DNA from: a virus
Virus record (IMG/VR): IMGVR_UViG_3300044616_000369
Span: 1-33,710 of that record
Reading direction: 5' to 3' (one strand)
DNA: 33,710 nt
The notes under the pieces are model-generated. The model saw only the letters and a list, made by a program, of their open reading frames with translations. It did no database searches and was not told the DNA's origin. Numbering within the stretch: the first letter of the stretch is position 1; every line of letters starts with the position of its first letter. Both the position numbers and the translations under genes were made by a program. Shown here piece after piece: positions 10,965 to 27,482 of this stretch.

Positions 10965-11190
10965 GGGTCGCCACAGCCGTTTGCAATACGCCAGAGTTGT
11001 TGACCGTCACCTCGTAGACAGTGCCATTCGGAGCCTGCAGCAATATCTGCTGCTGAACAGTATTCGGGCCGGCGAGATTAGACAGCCGGCGCGCCAAGAT
11101 AGACATGAAAGAGGTGAAATATTGCGGGTCATACTTGCCGGGAACAACGCCGAATGATGGTAGCGGTGTCGGCTTAGTCGGTGTCGTCAA
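10939..11190 (-). CDS. Small structural or accessory protein, 83 aa
   Basis: The start is TTG at 11190 inside a TTGA overlap with the nozzle-like gene stop, with an excellent GGAGG 6 nt upstream that supports this unusual start. The N-terminus is Pro/Thr-rich (TTPTKPTPLPSFGVVPG), then a helix (YFTSFMSILARRLSNLAG), then beta-like text (ILLQAPNGTVYEVTVNNSG). No family is named. It lies between nozzle and internal protein genes, so a virion part is likely. Confidence 0.6.
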   Translation of the reverse strand: MTTPTKPTPLPSFGVVPGKYDPQYFTSFMSILARRLSNLAGPNTVQQQILLQAPNGTVYEVTVNNSGVLQTAVATRGTIQPPL

Positions 11191-13007
11191 CGGCGACCTC
11201 CAGCGGACTGAATGTCAAACCGCATCTGCCCGACGCTCCAGTAATCGTCGTTTGTAGCTTCAATACGCAGGCGGATGTCACGCCCAGAAACGCGGGTATC
11301 GGTATAGCCATCAGACCTCGGGCTGTACGGGCCAAACGTCGCTTCATTCTGGCTAGGCGCATAGCGTGACTTGAAGGCAATGGAATAGTTCGTCACATCG
11401 CTATCCGGGTCAGACGATACGAGCGCCTGATTGACCTCGATGTATTTGTCGCCCTGCCCGAAATCTAGGACAGCGGTTTCAGCCCAGACGTTTCCGACAC
11501 GAGATGCGCCGTCATCCAGCCAGCCGTCCTCAAACTGGTAGACGTTGTCGTCTGTCTTAGCACCAATCGGATAGCTAGCCGTAACCGCGCCAACCGCAGC
11601 CGTCACACTTCGCTGCCCCTTGATCCAAAAGTTCTCTGCATAGTTCCAGATTACGTAATTGTTGCACTCGTTATCCGCAGAATGAATATCAGGATAATCA
11701 AACCAGAACTCAGGATAGGCTCCGTTCTCATGCATGTGAGAGCGGTAATTTCCATAGAGCGGGTCGTAGTTCTGCTTGATGTCGTTCCACATTGGACAAT
11801 CAAGCAAGCGGATCGCGCCGCCGGAATAGACCCAGAAACCTTCCTCGCCGAACCACACAGTATATGGGCCTCCGCTAGAAATGGCATTCGGTGATGAGAA
11901 TGTCGTAGACCCTAACTTTTCGACGCCGTAAAAATACGGAGCGCCGACATAGCGCATGAGGAAGCACTCATGCTGCGTCAGGATTAGGATGCCTTCCTTG
12001 ACGCGGACGCCGGTAATAATCGGCGACGAGGCTTCAAGGTCGATATAGCCAGCCTGTCCGGTAGAGACGTTGAACGTCCAGCCGTTATAGTCTTCCAGAT
12101 CAGACCAAGCCACGCGACGCGGGTTGCCGCCAGCACCTAGAAGCACCACAGCGCGCTCAGAGGTCACGGCGACTGCGACATTATCTATCGGGGCATTCGA
12201 CGGGACATCCATTTTCGGGACGACGCCGGTAGTTGGCGCAAGATGTAGTAAGCGACCATCCGACGAGCAGACGCCGAGCAAGTCTTGACCAAAAGATGCA
12301 AACGACCAGTGGTCTGGTTTACGGAAGATTGGCGGGTTAGTGGAGCGCTGACGACCATAGTTATCTTGGCCGACCATCCATTTGCCGGTATGGACGCCAG
12401 ATTGGGTGCCAGAGGTATTAACCGCCGTCCCGTTCTTGCCGCCAGAAGCTAAGCAAATCTGGAACGTGTCAGTGCTTACCGGGAGAACGTAGTAATCAGT
12501 GCCAGACGTGATGCCGGTCGGCAATGCGCCGGTCGTCGTGAAATTGACCACGTCATCCGAGGTAAGGCCGTGGCTCGTCCATGTAATAACTGCCGGGCTG
12601 GCAATGGTAATTGTAACAGTCGCGCTAGAGGCTACCGTCGTTCCCGCCGTGTCGGAGATAGGATCAACATCCGTTCCCCAGTCCAATGAGCCGTAACCAC
12701 CGCCGGACACAGCGTTCATGGAAACAAAGCTTGCCGGCGTCACGTCAGATGTTGAGCCAAACAGGACAGCTACACCATCCTCGTGACCGATTGCCGTCCA
12801 TTCACGAGCGTCATTATCGCGCCACTGGAACAGCATCCGAACCTTAGAAGGCAGAGGCTCTGATGTAATACGGGTATTCCCGCCAATGGGCATAATCGCG
12901 CCTGAGAGCCAGCGCACGTTTGACGTTTCCCACCAGCTGTTAGGAACATCGTAAGGCGTTGCCTGACGGATCACACCAGGCTTGAATTTGACCGGAACGA
13001 ATGTCAA
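11187..13007 (-). CDS. Tail nozzle / DNA-stabilisation-type virion protein, 606 aa
   Basis: The N-terminus (FVPVKFKPGVIRQATPYDVP, then WWETSNVRWLSGAIMPIGG) is typical of podovirus nozzle or packaged-DNA-stabilisation proteins (P22 gp10-like, T7 gp12 functional counterpart). Beta-propeller-like repeats follow (RRVAWSDLEDYNGW, WFGEEGFWVYSGG, SHMHENGAYPEFWFDYPD). Residues about 122-208 are an inserted module (ITWTSHGLTSDDVVNFTTTG, GTDYYVLPVSTDTFQI) of the kind annotated as E1-FCCH-like in phage proteins. The start is TTG at 13007, with GAGG 5 nt upstream and no better start. It should sit below the portal and adaptor and hold DNA in. Confidence 0.75.
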   Translation of the reverse strand: MTFVPVKFKPGVIRQATPYDVPNSWWETSNVRWLSGAIMPIGGNTRITSEPLPSKVRMLFQWRDNDAREWTAIGHEDGVAVLFGSTSDVTPASFVSMNAVSGGGYGSLDWGTDVDPISDTAGTTVASSATVTITIASPAVITWTSHGLTSDDVVNFTTTGALPTGITSGTDYYVLPVSTDTFQICLASGGKNGTAVNTSGTQSGVHTGKWMVGQDNYGRQRSTNPPIFRKPDHWSFASFGQDLLGVCSSDGRLLHLAPTTGVVPKMDVPSNAPIDNVAVAVTSERAVVLLGAGGNPRRVAWSDLEDYNGWTFNVSTGQAGYIDLEASSPIITGVRVKEGILILTQHECFLMRYVGAPYFYGVEKLGSTTFSSPNAISSGGPYTVWFGEEGFWVYSGGAIRLLDCPMWNDIKQNYDPLYGNYRSHMHENGAYPEFWFDYPDIHSADNECNNYVIWNYAENFWIKGQRSVTAAVGAVTASYPIGAKTDDNVYQFEDGWLDDGASRVGNVWAETAVLDFGQGDKYIEVNQALVSSDPDSDVTNYSIAFKSRYAPSQNEATFGPYSPRSDGYTDTRVSGRDIRLRIEATNDDYWSVGQMRFDIQSAGGRR

Positions 13008-13015
13008 TGGAGCCT

Positions 13016-13369
13016 CTACTTTAGCTTGGTCAGCTTGTAGTGCGTCGTCAGATAGCTATCGACGAGATTATCAACCAGATTAGATATAGCCCTGATATTG
13101 CCAGCCAGCTTGTCGCGGTTCTGATCAATCGACTTTGCCTCAGAGGCGATATGCTCGGCGATGTCATCTTTATTGACCACCGCCTGCTTAACGTCGCCAA
13201 TCAAGCCATAAGCTCCCTGATGCGCCTCTACGATGGCGTCAACATTGTCGATTAGGTTGTCGTAGAAATCACCGAGGACGCCGTGTCGGTAACCGGATGT
13301 TTCGGCCCAGTGGGCAAGATGGACAGCGTTTCGCGTAGCAAAGACGCGAGAGACAAGCTCTTCGATCAT
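13016..13369 (-). CDS. Dps/ferritin-like phage protein (DUF5856-like), 117 aa
   Basis: An all-helical protein. The N-terminal pattern VSRVFATRNAVHLAHWAETS followed by LGDFYDNLIDNVDAIVEAHQ has His/Asp/Glu positions like a ferritin-like helical bundle and resembles DUF5856 proteins of large phages. The C-terminal half is another pair of helices (AEHIASEAKSIDQNRDKLAG). Metal binding is possible but the ligand set is incomplete by eye. GAGGGA lies before the ATG. Its place between fibre and nozzle genes suggests a virion or packaging accessory. Confidence 0.6.
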   Translation of the reverse strand: MIEELVSRVFATRNAVHLAHWAETSGYRHGVLGDFYDNLIDNVDAIVEAHQGAYGLIGDVKQAVVNKDDIAEHIASEAKSIDQNRDKLAGNIRAISNLVDNLVDSYLTTHYKLTKLK

Positions 13370-13376
13370 TTATCCC

Positions 13377-14054
13377 TCACGACCATGAAATTGTAATGTA
13401 GCCAGCTGCCCCGCCGCTACCGCCGGATTTGTCTTGGAAAACCCAAGCACATGTTGTTTCACAGCAGTAAACGCAGTAGGGGCCGCATCCACAATATTTT
13501 GTGCATGCACATTGATAGACATAATCAAGGCCACCACCGCCGCCGCCGCCACCCCCGCCAATAGAAGCATATACGCTCTCATTTTGATGCGTTAATATAC
13601 TGTTTTGGTTTTCGTCAGTAACCGTCCATGTAAAGCTCTGAGGCGTACCGTAAGAACCACCACCAAGACTTGGGCTACCACCAGCGCCGCCAGCAGAGGA
13701 TATGTAGTTTCCGAATGAGGTTGTTCCGCCTTGACCTCCAGGAGCCCCTCCAGAGTAATTGCCGCTCTGTCCTGCTTGGCCGCCCTGACCACCTACGACA
13801 GTTACAGTGAATGAATTAAATAATGGAATTGTGAAATTTTGGCTTCCGTAAAGTGTAGTGCTGCCAGACGTTACTGGATTTGTTATTCTTTTTGCTGAGA
13901 AATCAGAAAATGATATTGGCCCGCTTGCCGGCGTGTAACCTCTGTAATTATTATCGGTGTACCAGCGCTTATTATAATATGACCCTAAACTATTCCCGTA
14001 TCCAAATTCTGAATTTATTGCGCTCATGCTGATGGCGCTTGTCGGGAGTGTCAT
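13377..14054 (-). CDS. Glycine-rich tail-fibre/adhesin with Cys-rich segment
   Basis: A 225-aa protein. The N-terminus PTSAISMSAINSEFGYG is the short motif that begins many phage fibre proteins. Residues about 85-135 are glycine-rich (GGQGGQAGQSGNYSGGAPGG), residues 166-175 are ten consecutive Gly, and residues 182-202 hold eight Cys (CACTKYCGCGPYCVYCC core). It ends with GGSGGAAGYITISWS, the usual end of glycine-rich adhesin domains. A receptor-binding tip is likely. The gene is more AT-rich than the nozzle gene beside it, suggesting acquisition. GAGGGATAA precedes the ATG. Confidence 0.7.
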   Translation of the reverse strand: MTLPTSAISMSAINSEFGYGNSLGSYYNKRWYTDNNYRGYTPASGPISFSDFSAKRITNPVTSGSTTLYGSQNFTIPLFNSFTVTVVGGQGGQAGQSGNYSGGAPGGQGGTTSFGNYISSAGGAGGSPSLGGGSYGTPQSFTWTVTDENQNSILTHQNESVYASIGGGGGGGGGGLDYVYQCACTKYCGCGPYCVYCCETTCAWVFQDKSGGSGGAAGYITISWS

Positions 14055-14063
14055 TTATCCCTC

Positions 14064-14393
14064 TTATGGAACAGGGTAGAATATCGAATAAAGGGCGGCA
14101 ATAACGGGAGGCGCAGGAGTTTCGCCATCTACTGACCAGATTTTTTCATCTGTGTAATACCTATATTCTATTGTAGTATCAGCCATGATTTTGCCGTCAG
14201 GCACAGGAGTGGTAAACGTCATCACTGAAAAGACGCCGGGGTATTGTTTTTTTTCTTCAGGATTATTCGGATCAGGAACATCAAAGACATTTGGGAAATA
14301 TTTATCTTCCCATTTATAACCATCATTTGCCAGATTATATATGTCCCACCTATAGGCTGTATAATCCGGCTGATTGGTAATAATAACAGTCAT
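14064..14393 (-). CDS. AT-rich fibre-associated protein of unknown function, 109 aa
   Basis: The product is rich in Tyr, Pro and Asp (YTAYRWDIYNLANDGYKW, FDVPDPNNPEEKKQYPG) and looks like an all-beta domain. The ATG overlaps the stop of the S74 fibre gene (ATGA). Base composition is visibly AT-richer than in flanking packaging and head genes. It could be a small fibre part or a fibre chaperone; nothing in the sequence decides. Confidence 0.6.
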   Translation of the reverse strand: MTVIITNQPDYTAYRWDIYNLANDGYKWEDKYFPNVFDVPDPNNPEEKKQYPGVFSVMTFTTPVPDGKIMADTTIEYRYYTDEKIWSVDGETPAPPVIAALYSIFYPVP

Positions 14394-15325
14394 TGTCTTT
14401 CCTCAAGAGCTTCGACCTTTGCCGATAGCTCCTTTACGGCCTCAATAAGAACGCCGACAATATTACCGTATGCGACAGATAGCGTTCCATCATTTTCATG
14501 CACGACCTGGGGCAGTATCTCGCGCATTTCTTGAGCTATCACTCCTACGCCGGGCTTGTCGTCTTCAATACGGTTGTAGAAGACGCCACGCATACGATTA
14601 ACAATCGTCAATGGCTCAGCAATAGTTACAACGTCCTTCTTCAGACGAGCATCGGAGTAGGCTGTTATATTGCCTACGGATGTAAAATTGCCGCTTGTGT
14701 CGGTATTAAACGCCCATGCACCCGCGCCGACGCGGTAAATACCACAAGTATTGCCGTTGTTATACAGCATATAATTGTAGCCGTCTGTATCAGTAAGATA
14801 CAGCGAAGGGCCTGTGTTTGAAATTGTCAGTGCGCCTGTAATCGTGCCGCCAGACAAATTTAATTTCAGAGCGTCTGCCGTATCGACATAAGCCTTAGTC
14901 GTAGCATGTCCTGACGATACAGGAGTTGCAACAGTTGCCGGGTTCGTGAACGTAGCTGAACCGGCTACGCTTAGATTGCTGCTTAATGTCGTAGCTCCAG
15001 TCACGTTTAAGTTGCTTGAGAGCGTCGCCGCGCCTGTCACGCTCAGGGTGGTGCCAAACGATGCAGAGCCTGTCGTGGTCAGAGAGTTAAGCGTGCTTGC
15101 ACCCGTAACAAGCATAGTGCTGTCAAAAGTAACCGCACCATTTACCCTTAATGTCTGGCCGAACACCATCGGGCCAGCTGCTGTCTGAGATGTCGTCAGG
15201 GCGCGTGACAGCATGTGAGTGTCAATGATGTCAAAGTCCGCATTGACGTGGGTACCCCAAGCATTTGTATCGCTACCCACCTCAGGCTTTAGGATGTTGT
15301 AGGTAGGGGTATATGTATTCGCCAT
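14390..15325 (-). CDS. Tail fibre with C-terminal S74 intramolecular chaperone
   Basis: A 311-aa protein. The N-terminus NTYTPTYNILKPEVGSDTNA followed by WGTHVNADFDIIDTH is a virion-attachment type seen in fibres. Residues about 55-128 are six 11-12-residue repeats (LSVTGAATLSSN, LNVTGATTLSSN and variants), expected to form a beta-structured shaft. The C-terminus is a peptidase S74 domain: Ser224-Asp225 in AYSDARLKKDV, with the nearby Lys, then GVGVIAQEMREILPQVV and a final coiled coil (VKELSAKVEALEERQ). The chaperone trimerises the fibre and cuts itself off before Ser224. Confidence 0.9.
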   Translation of the reverse strand: MANTYTPTYNILKPEVGSDTNAWGTHVNADFDIIDTHMLSRALTTSQTAAGPMVFGQTLRVNGAVTFDSTMLVTGASTLNSLTTTGSASFGTTLSVTGAATLSSNLNVTGATTLSSNLSVAGSATFTNPATVATPVSSGHATTKAYVDTADALKLNLSGGTITGALTISNTGPSLYLTDTDGYNYMLYNNGNTCGIYRVGAGAWAFNTDTSGNFTSVGNITAYSDARLKKDVVTIAEPLTIVNRMRGVFYNRIEDDKPGVGVIAQEMREILPQVVHENDGTLSVAYGNIVGVLIEAVKELSAKVEALEERQ

Positions 15326-15795: not shown

Positions 15796-16287
15796 TTAGA
15801 CAGCGGGAGCCGGATCGACAATCTGCGGCCCATTCGGATCAACCGGCCACACAACGCTCGTGACAGACGCGATGAAAGCGTCAATATCAGTCGTCGCTTC
15901 CATGTCGCTAATCGCAAGCGCGCATGTCGTCCGCACGGCTTCGCGGTACGACAGCCAATCAGCCGGGATTTCCGTGCCGATTTCCGTTTTGCGCGTGACA
16001 AGCCAATCTGACGGATCAAGCATCGTCCAAGCAGTCTGGCGAAATTGCGAAGCCCATGTCGTTTTGAGGCCAGCCAAGTCTTTCGGGATCGCCGTCCATG
16101 TTCCATCCGGGTTCTGGCTTACCCAGTAGAAACGATCATCAGGCCGTGGGTAATCCGGTATTTCCGTAATCCCGATAGCCGCACGCATTTCCGGCGTGGC
16201 CAAGCGCAGCCAGTTGGCGGGAAACGAAGTTCCATCATGCTCAAATGGCGTGTCCAGTTGGAGGACACGATTATCAAGAATAAACAT
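15796..16287 (-). CDS. Phage tail-fibre assembly/APC-like protein, 163 aa
   Basis: The ATG at 16287 is chosen because GGAGGG lies 5 nt upstream; an upstream start would lie deeper in the HNH gene. The C-terminal part has the pattern of phage tail assembly chaperone-like (APC/DUF4376-type) proteins: DWLVTRKTEIGTEIPADW, LSYREAVRTTCALAISD, ending VVWPVDPNGPQ. The N-terminal part (FEHDGTSFPANWLRLATPEM) is also known from such proteins. It probably helps fold or attach one of the neighbouring fibres. It overlaps the HNH gene end by 14 nt. Confidence 0.65.
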   Translation of the reverse strand: MFILDNRVLQLDTPFEHDGTSFPANWLRLATPEMRAAIGITEIPDYPRPDDRFYWVSQNPDGTWTAIPKDLAGLKTTWASQFRQTAWTMLDPSDWLVTRKTEIGTEIPADWLSYREAVRTTCALAISDMEATTDIDAFIASVTSVVWPVDPNGPQIVDPAPAV

Positions 16288-16861
16288 ACTGGCCCTCCAG
16301 CCGGTTAAATTTGCGCTGGTTTTCACTAGCTGGCAGATATTGAAGATTATTCAGCACATGCAACCCGCAAACGGTTTTTCCATTCAGCGGTATGATGTGA
16401 TCCACGTGATAGCCGTCTGGACACTTTGAGTAGAAAGCCTTGATAGCTTCCATATCTGCCCATGATGGCGTCCGTTGTTTCTTTGCGGCGCGATGAGCGG
16501 CGTAATAGCTAGTGATGCGTTTTCTATTCCGCTTGCGCCAGTTGTCGTTCGTGGCGTTTACCTTTGACGGGTTATCGATGTATTTCTGCCGCGTTCTAGC
16601 GCGCTGGGCGTCCGCGTCAGAATGATATAAATGGCGGGATACGGCGTTTTTGCGCTCGCGATTGTCCTGCGCCCACTTGGTTTGCGCGTCTTTGTTTAGC
16701 TTATTTTTATCCGCACGACACTGAACACATTCATTATTGCAAACATACCGATCAGCATAATGGCCGTATTTACACGGCTTACCTGTGCAGTAAAACCGCT
16801 TATCTGCACTAATTCTATTAAACGCCGGAGGTGTAGTGTTCTGTGCGAACATGCTTTTCAC
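16274..16861 (-). CDS. HNH endonuclease within the tail-fibre block
   Basis: A 195-aa protein. The N-terminal zinc site CTGKPCKYGHYADRYVCNNE continues to CVQC, then comes a Lys/Arg-rich helical middle (RKRNRKRITSYYAAHRAAKK), then the HNH core: HVDHIIPLNGKTVCGLHVLN followed by NLQYLPASENQRKFN. All catalytic positions are present. The start is GTG at 16861 in a GTGA overlap with the LamG fibre stop, or ATG at 16852. It overlaps genes on both sides, so it is likely a free-standing homing nuclease carried as a passenger; an intron is not evident. Confidence 0.85.
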   Translation of the reverse strand: MKSMFAQNTTPPAFNRISADKRFYCTGKPCKYGHYADRYVCNNECVQCRADKNKLNKDAQTKWAQDNRERKNAVSRHLYHSDADAQRARTRQKYIDNPSKVNATNDNWRKRNRKRITSYYAAHRAAKKQRTPSWADMEAIKAFYSKCPDGYHVDHIIPLNGKTVCGLHVLNNLQYLPASENQRKFNRLEGQYVYS

Positions 16862-19269
16862 CGTGCCAGTGAGTATTTGAAGGGGTTTTCCGCGAAGGCG
16901 GCGTATATTATCGTGTTTGTGCTGCCATTAACTGAAGCTGATGAAGTTCTAATTTTGAAGCCGTTAGATGTGAAATCAAGATTAGTAGATGAAAATTCAG
17001 CGTCAGACGTATCGGCAACAAGAGAATTGCCTATGACGTTGTAAATCTGCCGCGCGGTATCCCAGATATACCAATCGTAACCAGCGCCGCCAGTAGATGC
17101 GTTTTTCACCATTATGTAACGCGGCCTAAATCCCGTAAAAACAAACGGCCCATCAGCCGAACCATTCCCCGTATAGCTACCAAAGGCGCTGTAGCCCGCG
17201 ACGGCGGCGAAGCAGTAGGCGACCGCTGTATCTGATGGATTACAAGCGACGTTTGTTCCCATAGAGAACACTGACGAAGTTGGCGCGGTGTTTGCCCAAA
17301 TGCTTGTGTTGTTCGTCTGTGCAATTGTCGTATTCAACTGCTGGAAATAAGCGGCCATATTAGTCATGCCGCTATGGACAACGCACCAGTTGTTACCGGC
17401 AGTTGAACGGCTTTTAACGATAATCATGTTTGGAACGACGCCGAGGCCATGACCAACCGTAAAGTTGCCAGACGCCGGACAGGTAAACGTAACCACACTA
17501 AAACCAGCCGTCGCATTAGCGCTTACCGTGCTGGTGATAGTGCCGGAGGTGTTGCTGGAGCCTGCGCCGTTGGCTTTCCAGTTCCACGCCACATAGGTTT
17601 TATTCAATTCGTTGACTGTTACAATCGACGACGAACCTTGCGTCAGTGTAAAGCCGCCTGAATTAAACGCACTGACATACCCGTTTGCGTTGTTGGTTAC
17701 TTCGGCAGACGTGCTGCTAGGCGTAAGTGATTTGCCAGCGGTTCTAACGGCGTCCAGAATGAGCGCGTCATACGCCATACTGCGTGATTTCACCCAAACC
17801 GTATCGGGCTGGAAGGTTAAGCCTGTAATCGAGCGATTATTGTTCCCGTCGCCTGTCCACAGGCTGATGTCCATATACGCATTACCCGCCGCAATCGTAG
17901 GCGTCGGAAGGTTCTGCGTGTTGAGCGCCTTGAAGCCGGAGGGAGGCGTGTGGGTGAATGGGCGCTGGCCGAAATTAACGTCAAATGTTGACGAATTGCT
18001 AGAAGATCCATCAGATACAAAGGCAAATAAATTTGCGCCTGCATAAGTTATCGCACCTTGACTGACATTATCACGGTAGAACGTGACTGTTCCGCTATCA
18101 ATATCAACAGCAACGCCAATCGTGTTTGTCGTGTATGCGGAGCCGTAAGCGCTATTCACGCCGTTTACATATTTTGTGCCGTCAGAATAATAACTACAAG
18201 CCGTCCCCGTAAAAGCATTCATGGTGGTGGAATATGGCGCGATACCATTGAGCATTCCACCCGCAGTTGAGGATGCGCCAGTCTCCCAATAATATTTTCC
18301 TGACGACGGGAGGGCTATCGTTGCCATAGAATAGCCCGCGCCAGCAACGCCGGTCACTGTCGTCAGATTACCATTCGACAGTGTTGGGGTAGAGCCGGTG
18401 ACGACAGCTAACGGATTAAGCGTCGCATAATTGCCAACATTATACACGCCATCCGTAGTGTAAGGCGTCGGCGTGTCAATCATGCTGTCGTATGTAACGC
18501 CAGCCGTGATTGAAATGTTATTCGTCACCCAATAGTTGCCGTTGGGGGAACTGTCTTTGCCTATACCGCTATTGCCGCCGCCAGCGGTTGTCAGCGCGCT
18601 GTTGTCCGCGAATTTCAGATAGAAGCCGTTTGTGCCATACGTTCCGGTGTAGGCTTTCGGCTTCCAGACGCCCGTTGTCGCGTCTGTCTCGCCAAAGCTG
18701 GATGGCGTGAGCGCTTGGCCGTCTATTAGATAAACGTCAGCCATATAACCATCAAATTCGCGAGAACTTGTGTATGGCTGCTCGGAGCCTATACTATGTT
18801 GCGCGGTGCTATTTACGCCTGTGTCGGCATTTTGCGTTGGATTGTTTGTAGTCCCAAACGCGGTGACTTCGGCGCCATTTACATAAACTCTTATGCGATT
18901 ATTTGCGGTGGCCTGCGTCGTATCAACTGCAACCACTATGTGATACCACGCGCTTGTGTCACGGAATACCTGTGTGGTGATGCGATAGTTTGTTGCATAG
19001 CCCGATATGGACAGAGTGTCTGCGGCAAGCAATGTCACGGCGAAGCTATCAGTATCCGTTCCTGTATTTGAAACGCGATAAAAAACGCCCTGCTCTGCAC
19101 TAAGCAAGCCACGCTTAATCCACGCGCTAAGCGTAAATGTTTTACGGTTCCCTGCGGTTCCCGGCGTCCGGCTTAGATACGCGCTTGCCGAACGACGAAA
19201 GCGAAGGCTGCGGCTGATCGTGTAGCCGCCAGTCTTTTTCGAGAAGATAAGGTCTTTTGCGCTAAACAT
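16858..19269 (-). CDS. Large tail fibre with LamG- and SPRY-like lectin domains, 803 aa
   Basis: Domains in order: a short N-terminal anchor ([20 protein letters not shown]); a LamG/concanavalin-like domain, about 20-215 (TFTLSAWIKRG, WYHIVVAVDTT, RIRVYVNGAEV, REFDGYMADVYLIDG); a SPRY-like domain, about 310-445 (GKYYWETGAS, IGVAVDIDSGTVTFYRDN, DVNFGQRPFTHTPPSGF); and a two-part C-terminal domain, about 465-803 (FQPDTVWVKSRS, VVPNMIIVKSRS, FRPRYIMVKNAS), of the DUF7483 kind seen in phage fibres. It should bind host surface glycans. It is coupled to the upstream fibre gene by TAATG. Confidence 0.8.
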   Translation of the reverse strand: MFSAKDLIFSKKTGGYTISRSLRFRRSASAYLSRTPGTAGNRKTFTLSAWIKRGLLSAEQGVFYRVSNTGTDTDSFAVTLLAADTLSISGYATNYRITTQVFRDTSAWYHIVVAVDTTQATANNRIRVYVNGAEVTAFGTTNNPTQNADTGVNSTAQHSIGSEQPYTSSREFDGYMADVYLIDGQALTPSSFGETDATTGVWKPKAYTGTYGTNGFYLKFADNSALTTAGGGNSGIGKDSSPNGNYWVTNNISITAGVTYDSMIDTPTPYTTDGVYNVGNYATLNPLAVVTGSTPTLSNGNLTTVTGVAGAGYSMATIALPSSGKYYWETGASSTAGGMLNGIAPYSTTMNAFTGTACSYYSDGTKYVNGVNSAYGSAYTTNTIGVAVDIDSGTVTFYRDNVSQGAITYAGANLFAFVSDGSSSNSSTFDVNFGQRPFTHTPPSGFKALNTQNLPTPTIAAGNAYMDISLWTGDGNNNRSITGLTFQPDTVWVKSRSMAYDALILDAVRTAGKSLTPSSTSAEVTNNANGYVSAFNSGGFTLTQGSSSIVTVNELNKTYVAWNWKANGAGSSNTSGTITSTVSANATAGFSVVTFTCPASGNFTVGHGLGVVPNMIIVKSRSTAGNNWCVVHSGMTNMAAYFQQLNTTIAQTNNTSIWANTAPTSSVFSMGTNVACNPSDTAVAYCFAAVAGYSAFGSYTGNGSADGPFVFTGFRPRYIMVKNASTGGAGYDWYIWDTARQIYNVIGNSLVADTSDAEFSSTNLDFTSNGFKIRTSSASVNGSTNTIIYAAFAENPFKYSLAR

Positions 19270-26891: not shown

Positions 26892-27482
26892 TTAAGCCAT
26901 TTCAGCGGCTCTTTTCTTGTTCGCGCATGATCGCGAACAGCAAGCCGTGGTTCTGTGTCTGTTGGCAAGAAACTCCTTGCCGCAGTGAGCACACGTTCTT
27001 TTGTCTGTATTGTATGTCTTAAAATATACGCTCATTGAGCAAGACTTTGAGCAATACTTAGCCTTCTCTGGCCAATACGTCTCAAATTCTTTTCCGCATT
27101 TTTGGCATGTCGCTTTTGATTTCTGCTTTGACGACCATGCGGCAATGCCGTTTTTCTTATGCCACTCTACGCCCTCTGGACTTGAATGCCAGTCCTTTGC
27201 GGCCTCTCTTGCTTTCTCTAGACCTGCATCCAGTATTTTTCGCTGTTCTGGGTCGTTCAGGCGTTTTACAAGATGCTCTCTTGCGTGATCTTTTTTAAGA
27301 ATAATCTCTAAATTTGATATGTCGTTATTAGTCCAATCATCATCTTTGTGATGAATGTCGTAACCATTCGGTATTTTGCCGTTGTGCTTTACCCAGATTT
27401 GGCGATGCAATAGCCGTTCGCCATTTATCTTTTCACGCGAAGCCAGGTATCGACCAGTTGATTGAACGTAATACTTGACCAT
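26892..27482 (-). CDS. HNH homing-type endonuclease with two zinc ribbons, between terL and portal
   Basis: A 196-aa protein. The N-terminal region has LLHRQIWVKHNGKIPNGYDI, then the HNH core HHKDDDWTNNDISNLEII with His44, His45, Asn57 and His66. The C-terminal half carries two Cys4-type zinc sites: C126-x2-C129 with C144-x3-C148, and C164-x2-C167 with C181/C182-x3-C186. This is the plan of free-standing HNH homing nucleases that bind DNA through zinc ribbons. The gene is AT-richer than terL and portal, consistent with recent insertion. Its ribosome binding site is buried in a hairpin (27490-27511). Confidence 0.9.
   Translation of the reverse strand: MVKYYVQSTGRYLASREKINGERLLHRQIWVKHNGKIPNGYDIHHKDDDWTNNDISNLEIILKKDHAREHLVKRLNDPEQRKILDAGLEKAREAAKDWHSSPEGVEWHKKNGIAAWSSKQKSKATCQKCGKEFETYWPEKAKYCSKSCSMSVYFKTYNTDKRTCAHCGKEFLANRHRTTACCSRSCANKKRAAEMA

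Follow-up and report, generated by a model that had tools for sequence, protein, structure and literature searches.

The gene at 13377-14054 on the minus strand of the window (the whole stretch of DNA analysed here, a 33.7-kb IMG/VR virus record) encodes a small glycine-rich fibre-tip adhesin whose last glycine loop carries eight cysteines within 21 residues, in a tip that differs in nearly every relative. The reading we favour, and hold with moderate confidence, is that of a receptor-binding glycine-stem tip protein in which the Cys segment forms a disulfide-braced, protruding hairpin. The tip loops that set phage host range are commonly presented as variable loops carried by a glycine lattice. 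A family in which such loops are braced again and again by Cys pairs, and in which one member places eight Cys in a single loop, suggests that some adhesins use disulfide-stapled fingers as a compact binding scaffold. Two points become directly testable, namely the oxidation of the tip in virions and a possible role of the co-inherited 109-aa gene upstream as a dedicated folding helper.

Sequence, predicted fold and gene neighbourhood

Translation of the gene gave exactly the ten glycines and eight cysteines that the initial annotation, made from the sequence alone, had placed within 13449-13560, a span that covers both. Gly166-175 is uninterrupted and is followed by Cys182, 184, 188, 190, 194, 197, 198 and 202, the only cysteines of the protein, in a dense, CxC-rich arrangement (CxC-x3-CxC-x3-C-x2-CC-x3-C) that includes no His (Table 1). 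Such a density arose in 0 of 20,000 shuffles of the tip protein, and any other six-frame ORF of the window reached at most six Cys per 21 residues. With 38 Gly in 131 residues, the protein has a glycine-rich domain whose stems are long both in its first loop (L1, with GGQGGQAGQSG) and in its last (L6, preceded by Gly166-175); a Gly run is common to the family, typically of 5-8 residues and often interrupted, and the ten uninterrupted glycines of the window are the longest run among the relatives compared.

The reading frame is conserved on both flanks of the Cys segment across about 21 relatives, and in-frame read-through past the segment leads to the family C-terminus, GGSGGAAGYITISWS in the window and GSGGAPGYIRLDWS, GSAGAAGYVSVSWS and others in relatives. 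The Cys codons are a synonymous mixture of TGT and TGC, and of the alternative frames over the segment one has stops inside while the other is an unrelated Ala-rich reading with no family match. A frameshift artefact, which the initial annotation had raised as a threat to its own claim, was rejected for a single indel, since the family C-terminus is kept in the same frame and the alternative frames give stops or no family match. A 70-aa ORF (13370-13582, minus strand) with a signal-peptide-like start (MRAYMLLLAGVAAAAVVALIMSINVHA) overlaps the polyglycine and Cys segment in another frame; it had no family match and is probably a by-product of the GGC-rich run.

Table 1. Parts of the tip protein and genes around it, in window coordinates.
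Feature	Position	Strand	Basis
Glycine-rich fibre-tip protein, 225 aa	13377..14054	-	About 21 relatives by profile; AF2 mean pLDDT 90.2
N-terminal module, aa 1-57 (MTLPTSAISMSAIN...GPISFSDFSAKR)	13884..14054	-	Family-conserved (alignment); short helices 10-17, 23-26, 49-52 predicted
Beta-strand part, aa 58-87	13794..13883	-	Predicted strands 64-68, 72-75, 81-87; family-conserved
First glycine loop L1, aa 88-110	13725..13793	-	Alignment
Gly166-175, ascending stem of last loop L6	13530..13559	-	Alignment; Pam3 L1/L6 GGGGxGG stems
L6 hypervariable tip, aa 176-210, predicted beta-hairpin	13425..13529	-	Predicted strands 176-187 and 198-208; variable among relatives
Eight-Cys segment CACTKYCGCGPYCVYCCETTC, aa 182-202	13449..13511	-	Translation
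Conserved C-terminal closure, aa 211-225 (GGSGGAAGYITISWS)	13380..13424	-	Alignment
109-aa protein, directly upstream of tip gene	14064..14393	-	Homologues 26-27% aligned identity; no Pfam or PHROG match
Tail fibre with C-terminal S74 intramolecular chaperone domain, upstream of tip gene	14390..15325	-	Pfam PF13884 5.9e-12
Weak tail-fibre-assembly/tail-assembly-chaperone match, upstream of tip gene	15796..16326	-	phrog_4697 8e-6, phrog_4912 9e-6
117-aa DUF5856-like protein, downstream of tip gene	13016..13369	-	94-95% identical in relatives with differing tips
Virion structural protein, downstream of tip gene	11187..13007	-	phrog_3287 5e-65; 95-96% identical in relatives with differing tips

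Searches of Pfam and NCBIfam gave no match for the tip protein, PHROGs gave a weak minor-tail match only, and the PDB held no meaningful match by sequence; we infer its tail-fibre identity from position and fold. The structure prediction proposed in the initial annotation was run as an AlphaFold2 monomer model, built with a shallow alignment of 11 family members, which places the Cys segment in a hairpin with pLDDT lowest exactly at the Cys tip (about 63-72 for aa 181-200). Foldseek returned the cyanophage Pam3 fibre as the best PDB match of this model (7ypx_A, E 1e-3, prob 0.97), followed by the Bxb1 tail tip, with TM-scores to Pam3 that are low (about 0.25) and thus support a fold class rather than a superposition. 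The model of the sister protein in L048 matches Pam3 weakly (E 0.07), and in the viral library BFVD the best matches of the tip model were mostly glycine-rich phage proteins. Pam3 gp24 combines a TNF-like domain with a glycine-rich domain of six loops, in which L1 and L6 are central and have GGGGxGG stems, conservation drops distally and receptor binding is proposed for the hypervariable tip (PMC9608196). In these terms Gly166-175 would correspond to the L6 stem and the Cys segment to the L6 distal tip; the N-terminal module is presumed to be an attachment module that docks the protein to fibre or tail, and the strands of aa 58-87 are presumed to belong to a TNF-like/jelly-roll sandwich.

The tip gene sits within the fibre region of a record that encodes an integrase (Pfam Phage_integrase 9e-15) and a terminase sharing 70% identity with that of Sinorhizobium phage phiM5 and 69-74% with those of two Manatee Spring phages, identities that make an alphaproteobacterial host plausible. 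The equivalent place of the structural gene at 11187-13007 is annotated 'phage stabilization protein' in some relatives. The DUF5856-like gene carries the label 'starvation-inducible transcriptional regulator' (phrog_858) and lies within the structural cassette; related genes occur in many other phage contigs. Elsewhere in the window, an 803-aa protein with LamG-like, SPRY-like and DUF7483 domains (16858-19269, minus strand) is probably a second carbohydrate-binding fibre, and it too is strongly diverged among otherwise near-identical relatives. Free-standing HNH/endonuclease VII-like genes lie in the fibre region (16274-16861, minus strand) and near the terminase (26892-27482, minus strand), as well as at the same fibre-region place in relatives (L043:1865-2401, L045:6459-6977), and might help the fibre cassette to be exchanged. 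In the close relatives L041 and L042 the fibre region also encodes another glycine-rich protein, of a different type (L042:5377-6243, 288 aa, 0 Cys), which was not found in the window.

A conserved stem with a hypervariable tip

The neighbouring structural gene (11187-13007) was used to gather 17 contigs, in which its copies are 68-96% identical. The four nearest, L041, L042, L043 and L044, share 95-96% identity with the window over this gene and 94-95% over 13016-13369, and only 40-47% over the tip gene. Alignment of about 21 relatives shows conservation of the N-terminal module, of the glycine stems and of the C-terminal closure. Between the last Gly run and the closure, by contrast, nearly every relative has a sequence of its own, from a few residues to about 50 in length. 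Judged from these alignments, the pattern looks like that of a receptor-binding tip under selection for variety. Alignment, model, Pam3 match and tip divergence together support the proposal of a glycine-stem adhesin whose tip is variable and probably binds a receptor, and the Cys cluster does lie, as had been suggested, in a variable loop. Loop variation driven by a diversity-generating retroelement was rejected, as no RVT_1 reverse transcriptase was present in the window or in 10 related records, some of them fragments.

Among phage records, tblastn with four family members found Burkholderia phage JC1 only (E 1e-5, residues 1-84), together with four weaker matches at E 0.07 or higher that lay within the N-terminal part and did not reach the tip; no prophages were found in genome contigs with either the family profile or the neighbouring gene. 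The search for the Cys spacing in other phage adhesins that had been proposed was run as a scan of viral contigs for the exact spacing of the first seven Cys; it returned at least 120 stretches, with no glycine-stem adhesin among the matches listed. Likewise, no described Cys-rich glycine-stem tip was found in the open-access literature.

Cysteine patterns and competing readings of the Cys segment

A tree built solely from the N-terminal and beta part, without the loops, united the window, L041, L048, L050 and L051, the five members whose L6 is Cys-rich, in one clade (support 90/88). Cys- and aromatic-rich L6 tips are thus a trait of this clade and the window is its extreme case, such that the cluster is unusual, as first noted, in having eight Cys in one loop, but is not isolated. 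In the four sisters Cys104 at the L1 tip and Cys182, 210 and 219 (L048 numbering) are invariant, and the L1-tip motif GN-C-NGG stands where the window has GN-Y-SGG. L048 has exactly two Cys beyond these four, C191 and C204, which are opposed in its predicted hairpin 173-196/199-224 (191+204 = 395 = 196+199). With Cys assigned to L1 and L6 by eye from the alignment of 21 members, an odd L6 Cys count coincided with an L1-tip Cys in 8/8 cases, compared with 2/13 of the others (Fisher p 2e-4, uncorrected for kinship). L044 possesses both an L1 Cys and an odd L6 count, neither of which occurs in its close sisters L043 and L045. L097 and L098 are exceptions to the coupling, with a Cys in L1 and none in L6. 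Because Cys in relatives are gained and lost in pairs, mainly as L1 plus odd L6, disulfides are favoured over metal, and an L1-L6 disulfide is physically sensible given that both loops are central in the Pam3 lattice.

The window differs from its sisters in that the L1 Cys is lost, replaced by Tyr, and the L6 Cys number eight, an even count. Seven of the eight fall on even positions, that is, on one face of a hairpin, and pairing them first to last in nested order gives position sums of 384, 382, 385 and 384; this symmetry alone is seen in 26% of random placements, and together with the parity bias in 1.7%, a post hoc figure. Without an L1 Cys and with an even L6 count, a self-contained disulfide-braced L6 hairpin is therefore favoured for the window.

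The Cys-rich state is also accompanied by a gene. A 104-109-aa gene of one family lies directly upstream of every Cys-rich tip in the five-member clade and upstream of 0/8 Cys-poor tips compared (tblastn), where the gene immediately before the tip is that of the S74 fibre. Position and co-inheritance make the 109-aa protein a candidate chaperone or co-factor of the Cys-rich tip, although a single evolutionary event in this one lineage may account for the association. The sisters, unlike the window, also have a gene directly after the tip (L041:5697-6254, L048:2599-3216, L050:1665-2222, L051:3932-4492); it is 2OG-Fe(II) oxygenase-like, with an HxD motif and a weak, below cut-off match to Pfam 2OG-FeII_Oxy_3 (E 0.004), and its PHROGs label, 'DNA endonuclease V' (E 2e-29), is possibly a misannotation.

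Under the favoured reading, the conserved N-terminal module would presumably dock the tip protein to fibre or tail, the beta-sandwich would lead into the glycine-stem lattice L1-L6, and the distal loop tips would contact the host. The L6 Cys segment would protrude as a beta-hairpin whose disulfides must form late, because cytoplasmic assembly is reducing, and so would close after the virion exits the cytoplasm, making the stapled hairpin a rigid finger whose aromatic side chains may bind the host surface. Some of the bracing in the sister proteins probably links the L1 tip to L6, whereas in the window it would be contained in L6 or lie between trimer subunits.

Among the other readings, the strongest, though we consider it unlikely, is that the Cys hold Zn, Cu or Fe in a metal-thiolate site, which would either stiffen the L6 tip or make the receptor contact. 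Metallothionein-like CxC/CC motifs are one precedent and the metal sites found in certain phage spikes and fibres another, the dense, CxC-rich spacing fits them, and the window, unlike its sisters, has no partner Cys in L1; yet the segment holds no His, the tip protein matches no profile of a metal-binding family, and the L1 plus L6 partners or additions in twos seen in sisters and other clades fit disulfides. Of the two options raised at the outset, a disulfide knot or a metal site, the former thus gains from the paired behaviour of the Cys, while the latter is less favoured and still live. A wider version, in which the tip is a metal-binding thiolate cluster or a redox-switched thiol/disulfide patch that tunes receptor contact with help from the 109-aa protein, we regard as quite unlikely.

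Similarly improbable, though also still live, is that the Cys segment cross-links trimer subunits rather than bracing one hairpin. The trimeric state of Pam3 gp24 (PMC9608196) and the lack of an intra-chain L1 partner in the window would suit inter-protomer disulfides, but the even Cys number and the hairpin-compatible register permit internal pairing. It is more doubtful still that the segment is a neutral by-product of fast tip turnover, by recombination or slippage at the GC-rich stem, with Cys that have no structural role: tips are indeed exchanged very fast in this family, many relatives are without Cys and no identical twin of the window tip was found, but eight Cys in 21 residues are not given by chance in the shuffles, Cys co-occurrence is patterned across clades, and Cys-rich tips characterise one clade, in which an upstream gene is inherited along with them. 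A sequencing or frameshift error at the ten-Gly GC-rich run that precedes the segment has a negligible chance of explaining it, given the same-frame C-terminus, the mixed codons and the alternative frames described above.

Comparison with known glycine-rich tips

The window protein most closely resembles Pam3 gp24 (7ypx). Both have long Gly stems in L1 and L6 and a hypervariable distal tip on a conserved stem, and the predicted strands of the window protein would form a beta-sandwich that precedes the glycine-rich domain at the C-terminus, as in gp24. The likeness of the sandwich to the TNF-like domain comes from predicted strands and from the Foldseek match, high in probability but low in TM-score. 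Pam3 gp24 further possesses a long N-terminal trimeric helical bundle, whereas the window protein has a short conserved module with a few short predicted helices only; gp24 is a trimer, and we suggest that the tip protein may be one too. A dedicated TFA-like chaperone, gp25, lies beside the Pam3 fibre, and no gp25 homologue was identified in the window, where the 109-aa gene without family match adjoins the tip gene and the weakly matching TFA-like gene lies at 15796-16326. The window L6 carries eight Cys, while the text of the Pam3 paper makes no mention of disulfides (PMC9608196).

Glycine-rich phage proteins from uncultured Caudovirales, mycobacteriophage minor tail proteins and phrog_754 show fold-level similarity and a weak profile match (E 0.0016), but differ from the window protein in their N-terminal modules. 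The initial annotation had pointed to T-even gp38, a comparison that was right in kind, although the closest solved structure is Pam3 gp24 and membership of the gp38 group is unsupported, with no gp38 structure in the best 50 PDB Foldseek matches of the tip model and no sequence match either. In the sections of the source drawn on here, gp38 of S16, PP01 and T2 is a tip protein in its own right, in which hypervariable receptor loops on a glycine lattice determine host specificity, features that the window protein appears to share, and those sections describe a beta-helix domain before the PGII sandwich, unlike the window protein, and no Cys cluster (PMC12892980). The T-even gp38 sits on the tip of the gp37 trimer; in the window the S74 fibre gene lies just upstream of the tip gene. 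T-even gp38 is a more distant analogue than Pam3 that follows the same logic. The glycine-rich architecture is a known one and the Cys-packed L6 finger an unusual version of it, probably disulfide-stapled.
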